Part shown: in pieces, positions 2,461 to 25,252 of the stretch
Layout: each line of letters begins with the position of its first letter
Numbering within the stretch: the first letter of the stretch is position 1
DNA from: Nocardiopsis chromatogenes YIM 90109
GTDB lineage: Bacteria > Actinomycetota > Actinomycetes > Streptosporangiales > Streptosporangiaceae
Assembly (NCBI RefSeq): GCF_000341185.1
Contig: NZ_ANBH01000271.1
Coordinates: 1 to 32,087, forward strand
Reading direction: 5' to 3'
DNA length: 32,087 nt
Program-made: the position numbers and the translations under genes
The notes under the pieces: generated by a model
Seen by the model: only the letters and a program-made list of their open reading frames with translations
Databases searched by the model: none
Told to the model about the DNA's origin: nothing

Positions 2461-2733
2461 CCAGCGCTCCCCGCACGTGCGGGGAGCACGGGTTCCTCGA
2501 CGTGTTCGACACCGAGATCCGGGGTCCATCCCCGCGCGTGCGGGGAGCACCGAGTGGACGATCCCTGGCCCGACCTGAAGGCGGGTCCATCCCCGCGCGT
2601 GCGGGGAGCACTCCAAGCTCGGAAAGGCGCGAGTGCCGCGCGGAGGTCCATCCCCGCGCGTGCGGGGAGCACAAGTTGTACCCGATGTCCGACCAGCCGT
2701 TGCCGGGTCCATCCCCGCGCGTGCGGGGAGCAC
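2461..2733 (-). CRISPR. CRISPR array 1, type I-E-like, 5 repeats and 4 spacers
   Basis: Four near-identical repeats end at 2550, 2611, 2672 and 2733, exactly 61 bp apart, and a degenerate fifth ends at 2489. In crRNA orientation the repeat begins GTGCTCCCCGC and ends GCGGGGATGGACC, with a CCCCGC/GCGGGG hairpin. It is 28 bp, or 29 if the nearly constant final C is counted, giving 32-33 bp spacers; this is the geometry of type I-E. The degenerate repeat is at the left, marking the old end. The leader side is at the right, next to a motif shared with array 2, so the array is read leftwards, in the direction of rpmA and obgE. No cas gene is near. Confidence 0.97.
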
Positions 2734-2877: not shown

Positions 2878-3138
2878 TTACTCGGCGCCGGCCGGGACGA
2901 TGCTGACGGCCTTGCGGCCGCGCCGGTTGCCGAACTCGACCTTGCCCTCGACCAGCGCGAACAGGGTGTCGTCGCCACCGCGGCCGACATTGTCGCCGGG
3001 GTGGAACTTCGTCCCACGCTGGCGGATCAGGATCTCGCCGGCCTTGACGGCCTGGCCGCCGAAGCGCTTGACACCGAGCCGCTTAGCGTTGGAGTCACGC
3101 CCGTTACGGCTGGACGATGCGCCCTTCTTGTGTGCCAT
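2878..3138 (-). CDS. rpmA: 50S ribosomal protein L27
   Basis: L27 is a 50S subunit protein whose N-terminus reaches the peptidyl-transferase centre. The 86-residue sequence [16 protein letters not shown] through [23 protein letters not shown] is the standard bacterial form and length. It begins directly with AHKKGASS and lacks the cleavable N-terminal extension found in Firmicutes. It starts 14 bp after rplU and is co-transcribed with it. Downstream, a hairpin terminator and a CRISPR array separate it from obgE, which normally follows closely. Confidence 0.98.
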
Positions 3139-3152
3139 CGGGGAGCCCTCCT

Positions 3153-3461
3153 CTACTTGGCGATGCCGGTGACGCGGACCCGGGTGTACTTCTGGCGGTG
3201 ACCCAGGCGCTTCTTGTAACCGGTCTTGTTCTTGTATTTGATCATGTTGATCTTCGGGCCCTTGGTCTCGCCGAGGACCTCGGCGGTGACCTTGTAGGCG
3301 CTCAGCTCGCTGGAGTCGCTGACGACCTTGCCGTCGTCGACGATCAGCAGCGGCTCCCAGGACACCGTCGAACCGGTCTCCTCGGAGACCCTGTCGATGT
3401 TCAAGACGTCATCGACAGACACCTTCTCCTGTCGGCCGCCCGCTCGCACGATCGCGTACAC
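3153..3461 (-). CDS. rplU: 50S ribosomal protein L21
   Basis: L21 binds 23S rRNA in the large subunit. The 102-residue protein starts [20 protein letters not shown] and ends with the basic [22 protein letters not shown] tail typical of L21. The GTG at 3461 was chosen because it gives the family N-terminus and is preceded by GGAAGAGAG at good spacing; the longer open frame upstream encodes nothing recognisable. It is the first gene of rplU-rpmA, 247 bp after rne, with a terminator hairpin between. Its leader holds an isolated stem-loop resembling the CRISPR repeat (3485-3512). Confidence 0.98.
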
Positions 3462-3484
3462 CGGGGAACTCTCTTCCTGCTCGT

Positions 3485-3512
3485 GGACAATCCCCGCCGA
3501 GGCGGGGAGTGA
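3485..3512 (-). repeat. Isolated CRISPR-repeat-like hairpin in the rplU leader
   Basis: On the minus strand this 28-base stretch has CTCCCCGC, a four-base loop region, then GCGGGGAT and TGTCC. Aligned without gaps to the array 1 repeat it matches at 19 of 28 positions. The stem bases agree, and the differences fall in the loop and the ends. It lies 24 bp before the rplU start, on the strand from which the arrays are read. It may be a chance GC hairpin or an L21 regulatory structure. Confidence 0.45.
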
Positions 3513-3669
3513 AATGCGCTGCTGTTGACCGCAGCCCCATACCCACCGGGCTCCCGCTAGGGGGCGTGGGAATCGAAGTCGGGTCTCGGGCGCGCGAACG
3601 ATAGGGGCGCGCCGACGCACCGACCTTCAGGTTACCACCGCCCGGTCAGGGCCCGGCACGCCCGGGTCG

Positions 3670-24798: not shown

Positions 24799-25252
24799 CA
24801 AGGAGCCCCCGCGCGTGCGGGGAGCAGAGGTGCTCGGCGGCCTTGCCGGGCGGGCGGGGGTCCATCCCCGCGCGTGCGGGGAGCAGTCCAACACCGAGAA
24901 GGCCGGGCACGGCGAGACGGGTCCATCCCCGCGCGTGCGGGGAGCAGTGGCCGCGGGCCTCGGCGGGCATCAGGTGTTGGGGTCCATCCCCGCGCGTGCG
25001 GGGAGCAGCCGCCATGGAGGCTCCGGACCGTTCGGCGACCGGGTCCATCCCCGCGCGTGCGGGGAGCAGTCGTCGTAGGCGTCGCGGTACAAGGCATGGT
25101 CGGGTCCATCCCCGCGCGTGCGGGGAGCAGCCGCCCCGGGCCTGCTGCCGGTGAACTACCGGGGGTCCATCCCCGCGCGTGCGGGGAGCAGACCGACGAA
25201 CCCCGCGACCCGAAGGGCGCGGGGGGTCCATCCCCGCGCGTGCGGGGAGCAG
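24799..25252 (-). CRISPR. CRISPR array 2, type I-E-like, 8 repeats and 7 spacers
   Basis: Seven intact repeats end at 24886, 24947, 25008, 25069, 25130, 25191 and 25252, exactly 61 bp apart. A degenerate eighth ends at 24827, with a 31-bp spacer after it. In crRNA orientation the repeat opens CTGCTCCCCGC; array 1 opens GTGCTCCCCGC, and otherwise the 28 bases are identical. The leader lies at the right and the array is read leftwards, away from its plus-strand neighbours. Degeneration at the left confirms the old end. No cas gene lies within the window. Confidence 0.97.

Follow-up and report, generated by a model that had tools for sequence, protein, structure and literature searches.

Type I-E CRISPR repeat-like hairpins in core-gene leaders of the Nocardiopsaceae, seen from the rplU locus of Nocardiopsis chromatogenes

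The rplU leader of Nocardiopsis chromatogenes YIM 90109 contains a hairpin that looks like a type I-E CRISPR repeat and lies close to a CRISPR array. Is it a stray repeat, an ordinary hairpin of a GC-rich genome, or a leader element whose repeat-like form matters for the gene behind it? The window, by which we mean the whole stretch of 32,087 nucleotides analysed here, holds the following features:

3485–3512, minus strand: CRISPR I-E-repeat-like hairpin of the rplU leader, mRNA sense TCACTCCCCGCCTCGGCGGGGATTGTCC, with stem arms at 3502–3507 and 3492–3497 and the tail ATTGTCC
3473–3478, minus strand: putative Shine-Dalgarno sequence AGGAAG of rplU, assigned by position
3153–3461, minus strand: rplU, ribosomal protein L21, GTG start at 3461 (TIGR00061, 75.9 bits)
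3462–3634, minus strand: leader of rplU; it includes a conserved -10-like TAACCT at 3629–3634 (putative promoter)
2878–3138, minus strand: rpmA, ribosomal protein L27, identified by its sequence rather than by a family search
2462–2733, minus strand (crRNA sense): CRISPR array 1, I-E type, five repeats, with the leader-proximal CCCCAGGTCAACGAGA at the high-coordinate end
24800–25252, minus strand: CRISPR array 2, of the same repeat family and orientation as array 1

The rplU hairpin and its likeness to I-E repeats

The hairpin lies 24 nt upstream of the rplU start and runs in crRNA sense; the encoded L21 protein is 98% identical to that of N. endophytica. The original prediction had described a 28-base stretch on the array strand, about 750 bp from array 1, that matches the repeat at 19 of 28 positions. 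Coordinates, strand relation and count are all correct, and the distance is 752 nt, with hairpin and array 1 both in crRNA/mRNA sense on the minus strand. Comparison of the crRNA-sense array repeat, GTGCTCCCCGCACGCGCGGGGATGGACC, with the mRNA-sense hairpin bears out that the stem is kept (CCCCGC/GCGGGG, identical in both) and that the mismatches lie in the loop and the outer flanks. Since repeat and hairpin both run along the minus strand, the mRNA would present the hairpin in the sense that Cas6e would see.

Like an I-E repeat, the element has a GC-rich 6-bp stem, a short loop and a repeat-type 3′ handle. The 5′ flank GTGYT is replaced by CACT or other bases in rplU and is present in most of the rplY genomes described below. 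At 3485 the element is a single copy without regular repeat-spacer spacing or a CRISPR leader, the arrays being elsewhere in the window. A sigma-70 promoter and terminator scan of the rplU leader gave no sigma-70 match, and Rfam returned no curated leader family at gathering score and no r-protein leader at a low threshold. Fold z-scores of the whole leader are unremarkable.

The GC content of the window is 73%, and 19/28 identity alone is at chance level: three non-array sites score as high against the repeat (15233, 20/28; 27663 and 28182, 19/28 each), so that the count by itself proves nothing. What is unusual is the perfect CCCCGC-N4-GCGGGG stem, the sole non-array case in the window, together with the repeat-like 3′ tail ATTGTCC. 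The window and 60 related loci (61 sequences) hold 1743 GC-rich perfect 6-bp hairpins, 38 of which are followed 3′ by a 7-nt tail that agrees with ATGGTCC or ATGGACC in at least six positions. These comprise 29 array-type repeats and nine rplU-leader elements, and no tail-bearing hairpin falls outside these two classes among the 1743. The pattern TCCCCGC-N4-GCGGGGATNNNCC has only two matches in genome G122, one in the rplU leader and the other in a leftover repeat at the place of array 1, and its reversed control has none in 12 genomes.

Covariance model R2, built from 14 genuine I-E repeats only, gave 13 matches with E<0.01 on 67 rplU loci (328 kb), and all 13 lie in rplU leaders in the sense orientation. 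Model R1 was made from rplU elements of type A (see below): of 15 distinct sequences, four that align badly were excluded, and one retained sequence (G060) is shifted by one column. On 45 loci outside the model (232 kb), R1 gave 23 matches with E<0.01; every one falls in an rplU leader of Nocardiopsis sensu stricto (g46), and 22 are in sense. Unlike the 19/28 identity, the tests of tail and flank (hairpin tail count, R2 and the rplY flanks) exceed chance, and plain chance is rejected as an explanation. Judged from sequence, the resemblance of stem plus 3′ tail to I-E repeats is not accidental.

Leader elements across the Nocardiopsaceae

The hairpin had been called solitary in the original prediction. 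This holds for the window, where it is the only perfect non-array CCCCGC-N4-GCGGGG stem; it does not hold for the relatives, which have similar elements in their rplU, rplY and other core-gene leaders.

A gap-pattern search of 341 family genomes matched 45, made up of 19 with rplU leaders of type A, 21 of type 0 and five unrelated chance matches. Type A leaders, found in seven genera, have the hairpin between GCGCATT and CGAGCAGGAAG; type 0 leaders have 10–11 nt without a hairpin (nine genomes outside g46 and 12 within it). The g7 element (G011, G205) is the I-E array repeat core at 24/24 bases, and the third stem pair, C-G elsewhere, is U-A in g21. The rplU+rpmA+obg tree, from whose final version 17 of 71 rows, all thinned Nocardiopsis, were omitted, places type A in one 20-row clade with a single nested type 0 row (support 94/94), and the data are compatible with type A as an exclusive clade (p-AU 0.388). 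The type A hairpin was probably gained once within this seven-genus clade.

Nocardiopsis sensu stricto is placed elsewhere in the tree, apart from the type A clade. Many of its rplU leaders (type B) have a different insertion of about 90 nt with one or two repeat-like hairpins. Since R1, made from type A only, detects the g46 rplU leaders, type B appears to be the same kind of thing, and it was probably gained separately. Examples of type B are L046, L050, L055 and L081; in L046 the two repeat-like hairpins stand at a distance of about 66 nt, and another conserved hairpin lies in the interval. Leader stems have diverged from the array repeats of the same genome (G262), and in some lineages the base that follows the stem is altered, the A being lost in g30 rplU and g46 rplY. 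The window and most type A leaders retain the stem, the cleavage-side A and the handle-like tail.

A hairpin stands directly before the Shine-Dalgarno sequence of rplY in 30/30 Nocardiopsaceae genomes from 16 genera, typically as GTGTT-CCCCG-loop-CGGGG-AYGATCC-CGAGGAG. On 39 rplY loci, R2 gave 24 matches with E<0.01; 21 are the Shine-Dalgarno-proximal hairpin in sense and three lie elsewhere in the loci, so that the proximal element is found at this threshold in 21/30 genomes. Against the I-E repeat of Bifidobacterium animalis (excerpts of PMC4762764), the rplY element matches at least 18 of the 23 non-loop positions in 26/30 genomes and all 23 in three, whereas only two of 138 other hairpins of the same form in the rplY loci reach 18 or 19 of 23. 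Searches of 60 rplY leaders from other genera and families gave no R2 match (best E 0.46) and nothing convincing with R1 (best E 0.11). In a near outgroup (G067), we recognized a similar rplY-leader hairpin by eye. Three rplY leaders (L216, L213, L204) have tandem repeat-like hairpins without a spacer, with a 31-nt period in L216.

Other genes carry such elements as well. We searched ten genomes with R1 and, among the matches listed, many of them array repeats, read chosen solitary ones. For the complete genome G025, whose gene set was ascertained by this same model, 13 of the matches listed score at least 25.6 bits, and eight of these lie in the leaders of seven genes, on the same strand as the gene. 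Their hairpins are nearly identical. Besides rplU, the genes encode L25/Ctc (rplY), a dihydrolipoyl dehydrogenase (lpdA-type), trigger factor (tig-type), an RNA polymerase sigma factor (rpoD-type, also in G014/G129), an aminopeptidase-like ORF named by sequence only and an ORF without a family match. The rest of the 13 are an array-like pair, one array remnant, a match within an ORF and another that follows an ORF. The rplU hairpin is one of a family of such elements in core-gene leaders of the Nocardiopsaceae, which comprises rplY in all 30 genomes read, rplU in two lineages, and lpdA-, tig- and rpoD-type genes in one genome or more.

The leader hairpin of a principal-type sigma factor occurs in two genera (L153, L109). 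The dihydrolipoyl dehydrogenase leader of G025 (L151, about 842–950) contains a pair of repeat-like hairpins with identical loops at a distance of 81 nt; the second is built like an entire 28-nt I-E repeat.

Origin of array 1 and constraint on the stem

The original prediction had also proposed that the hairpin was an off-target integration site from which array 1 arose. The repeats of array 1 equal those of array 2 save one end base, and the leader-proximal CCCCAGGTCAACGAG (15–16 nt) is common to both arrays. The loop of the hairpin differs from the repeat loop of array 1. N. endophytica and N. suaedae also have an array downstream of rpmA, N. halophila has one repeat there, and the remaining type A loci that were read at this place (L038, L039, L040, L041, L043, L044), all of which have the hairpin, showed no array. 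The hairpin is thus more widely distributed than array 1 and, by this distribution, older. With standard repeats, its own leader end and hairpin-bearing genera that have no array there, the birth of array 1 from the hairpin is rejected.

The position of the array directly 3′ of rpmA is common to the window and its nearest relatives (L035, L036, L037). Only the proximal 15–16 nt of the array 1 leader are shared with array 2, so that read-through from rplU-rpmA is conceivable. A second kind of I-E repeat, with the tail CTGTTCC, lies near another full Cas6e gene (G000 C58, G001 C3; L107, L149, L147).

The scatter of lone canonical repeats over these genomes, with array 1 only 752 nt away, would fit a selectively neutral remnant, left by an ectopic CRISPR repeat or by integration of a spacer at an off-target site, that gave rise to array 1. 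This is nonetheless very unlikely: the stem is preserved through compensatory and wobble changes across seven genera, the motif recurs in sense in several leaders, the leader end of array 1 is its own and its repeats are standard, and the six hairpin-bearing loci named above have no array at its place.

The changes within the stems bear on the molecule that is under selection. In rplY, with the stem arms set by hand, 143 stem cells are Watson-Crick, 13 are G-U and none is A-C. The rplU stem of 15 type A rows is paired in 97.8% of cells and shows one compensatory change from C-G to U-A. Covariation in rplU is thin, a single double-change pair whose count is reached by 121 of 500 shuffles. All elements that R2 detects in rplU and rplY leaders run in crRNA sense, as do the leader elements of G025. 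Wobble pairs without A-C, the pairing of the stem and the sense orientation speak for selection on RNA, and the comparison favours RNA-level constraint on the leader elements. Perfect inverted repeats with a 4-bp spacer upstream of growth genes could also be DNA operators, that is, palindromic transcription-factor sites in the leader region. We consider this highly improbable, because a DNA site would show no such bias as the 13 G-T against 0 A-C departures in the rplY stems, the loop length is variable, and the rplY element occupies a fixed place before the Shine-Dalgarno sequence.

Candidate readers and known systems

The real, sense-oriented resemblance to I-E repeats makes the rplU message a possible target of Cas6e, as originally predicted from the sequence. 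The Cas6e family PF08798 matches 50/51 Nocardiopsaceae genomes and 30/31 in a second, overlapping set. Presence of the protein can thus not be correlated with the element. Cas6e is found in 18/19 type A genomes and in 11/11 tested type 0 rplU genomes outside g46. Dependence on Cas6e presence is rejected as an explanation, since 30/31 genomes have the protein with or without the hairpin.

The exception is G403 (also G123), which has no Cas6e match, a degenerate rplU hairpin and an intact rplY hairpin. Short or weak Cas6e-like matches only are seen in 11/51 genomes, eight of which have type B leaders, one of these eight being degenerate, and among the type B elements those most like CRISPR repeats (L050, L046) belong to genomes without full Cas6e. 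Conservation of the hairpin where no I-E system exists, which the original prediction had named as evidence against it, is found in part: G403 keeps its two hairpins, and eight Nocardiopsis genomes with only short or weak Cas6e-like matches keep type B leaders.

These observations also weigh on the idea that the hairpin is a substrate of active Cas6e, whose cut 3′ of the stem would trim the rplU and rplY mRNAs and couple their expression to the I-E system. That the window and most type A leaders retain all three features (stem, cleavage-side A, handle-like tail) agrees with it, as does the presence of Cas6e in 18/19 type A genomes. We nevertheless regard it as unlikely, for Cas6e has been lost without loss of the element (G403, and Nocardiopsis with only the short Cas6e-like protein), and the A after the stem is missing in g30 rplU and g46 rplY. 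Persistence of the element without intact Cas6e argues against obligatory cleavage.

Most of the weak Cas6e matches are a solitary protein of about 190 residues. It is encoded in 34/40 g46 genomes and one g65 genome, and not in the rest of the 341; examples are L105 (3361–3930; G139/G247), L104 and L106. The short protein aligns with Cas6e over its full length and keeps the glycine-rich C-terminal loop. A histidine of the N-terminal helix, which we take to be the catalytic position of Cas6e/Cse3, is absent: MH in two full Cas6e proteins aligns with MG in three short ones. The protein scores 19.3 bits with NCBIfam casE, below the cut-off of 45.2, and exceeds the PF08798 cut-off of 25 bits. Its best solved relative is the Cse3 chain 5u07, and two further entries matched. 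These similarities make it a candidate RNA-binding reader of the elements. Coupling of the protein to the rplU leader type is rejected, as it is present in 11/12 type 0 g46 genomes; six g46 genomes lack it, and type 0 accounts for one of these but not for the other five.

The main rival does without CRISPR altogether. Here a GC-rich hairpin before the Shine-Dalgarno sequence would steer translation or mRNA stability of growth genes. The means could be r-protein autoregulation, another RNA-binding protein or mere protection of the 5′ end, and the resemblance to I-E repeats would be convergence at high GC. Its standing comes from E. coli rplY, which is autoregulated via a hairpin before the ribosome-binding site (excerpts of PMC10931766), so that an ordinary r-protein or other regulator stays the chief competitor. 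Retention in genomes without intact Cas6e and the drift of stem and loop from the repeats of the same genome's arrays would suit it too. Against it, the same excerpts describe E. coli rplU-rpmA as lacking feedback regulation and rplY autoregulation as limited to short-bL25 species. Moreover, both flanks match I-E repeats as well (in rplY, 5′ GTGTT and 3′ ATGATCC), the tail occurs in no other hairpin among the 61 sequences, and there is no Rfam family match. We consider this explanation possible but somewhat unlikely. In its simplest form, the ordinary L21 leader hairpin that the original prediction gave as the alternative, it falls short, since sister lineages have no hairpin and the same motif stands before other genes.

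Comparison with known systems sharpens what the elements are. Actinomycete I-E systems have been studied as active systems (excerpts of PMC4762764). Leader elements and the I-E repeats of actinomycetes share the stem CCCCGC/GCGGGG, a short loop and the tail ATGGTCC or ATGATCC, and rplY also has the 5′ GTGTT; in contrast to such repeats, the elements are single or unspaced, have neither a 61-nt period nor a CRISPR leader, lie before a Shine-Dalgarno sequence and have drifting loops. Racr RNA anti-CRISPRs and solitary repeat units, as excerpts of PMC10651486 describe them, are likewise lone repeat-like hairpins outside arrays that could in principle bind Cas6. Racrs are small RNAs of viruses and plasmids, whereas the leader elements, that of rplU included, are chromosomal, stand before core genes and are vertically inherited. 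CreA of CreTA (excerpts of PMC9458426) has degenerate non-array repeats under selection, and type B rplU leaders also have two repeat-like units with a gap. The leader elements differ in lying outside the cas operon, and the stretch between the type B units folds a hairpin of its own; instead of degenerate repeats plus a guide beside a toxin RNA gene at a cas locus, type A has one unit, and its locus is rplU-rpmA-obg. The E. coli rplY leader (excerpts of PMC10931766) likewise belongs to an r-protein gene and has its hairpin ahead of the ribosome-binding site, but the Nocardiopsaceae hairpin is common to unrelated genes, matches CRISPR repeats and has no Rfam match.

The elements resemble I-E repeats, run in sense, are conserved as stems and are restricted to this group, and the best supported reading is that of a CRISPR-repeat-form mRNA-leader element common to several core genes. 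Stated in full, with the rplU hairpin as a conserved element before the Shine-Dalgarno sequence that combines the stem and tail of an I-E repeat, belongs to a core-gene family and has Cas6e-type proteins as leading candidate readers, this reading stands at about an even chance in our estimate. The elements would have derived from, or converged on, I-E repeats and, as sites where a protein binds or the RNA is processed, would adjust the translation or decay of these mRNAs. A protein reader seems plausible, most plausibly of Cas6e type, its identity being a guess: I-E Cas6e would serve in most genera, and the short solitary Cas6e-like protein without the catalytic histidine in Nocardiopsis sensu stricto. 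Upkeep of the element does not need cleavage. Counter to a Cas6e-type reader, the short protein accompanies type 0 leaders too.

A broader proposal, which we offer tentatively and think rather unlikely to hold as a whole, is a post-transcriptional core-gene regulon of the Nocardiopsaceae (rplU, rplY and the tig-, rpoD- and lpdA-type genes) built on exapted I-E repeats and Cas6e-type readers, in which a dead, domesticated Cas6e regulator of Nocardiopsis sensu stricto would tie growth-gene expression to CRISPR defence.

Single repeats away from CRISPR arrays were known from phages and from CreTA modules, and for leader elements of the present kind the open-licence literature gave only related ideas, namely the solitary repeat units of phages (excerpts of PMC10651486) and the ectopic repeats of CreTA (excerpts of PMC9458426). 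Here they are sense, conserved elements right before the Shine-Dalgarno sequence of chromosomal core genes, family-wide. If they are unrelated to Cas proteins, they still represent a leader motif common to several growth genes and absent from Rfam. If Cas6e-type proteins bind them, CRISPR RNA recognition would have been recruited into ordinary gene control.
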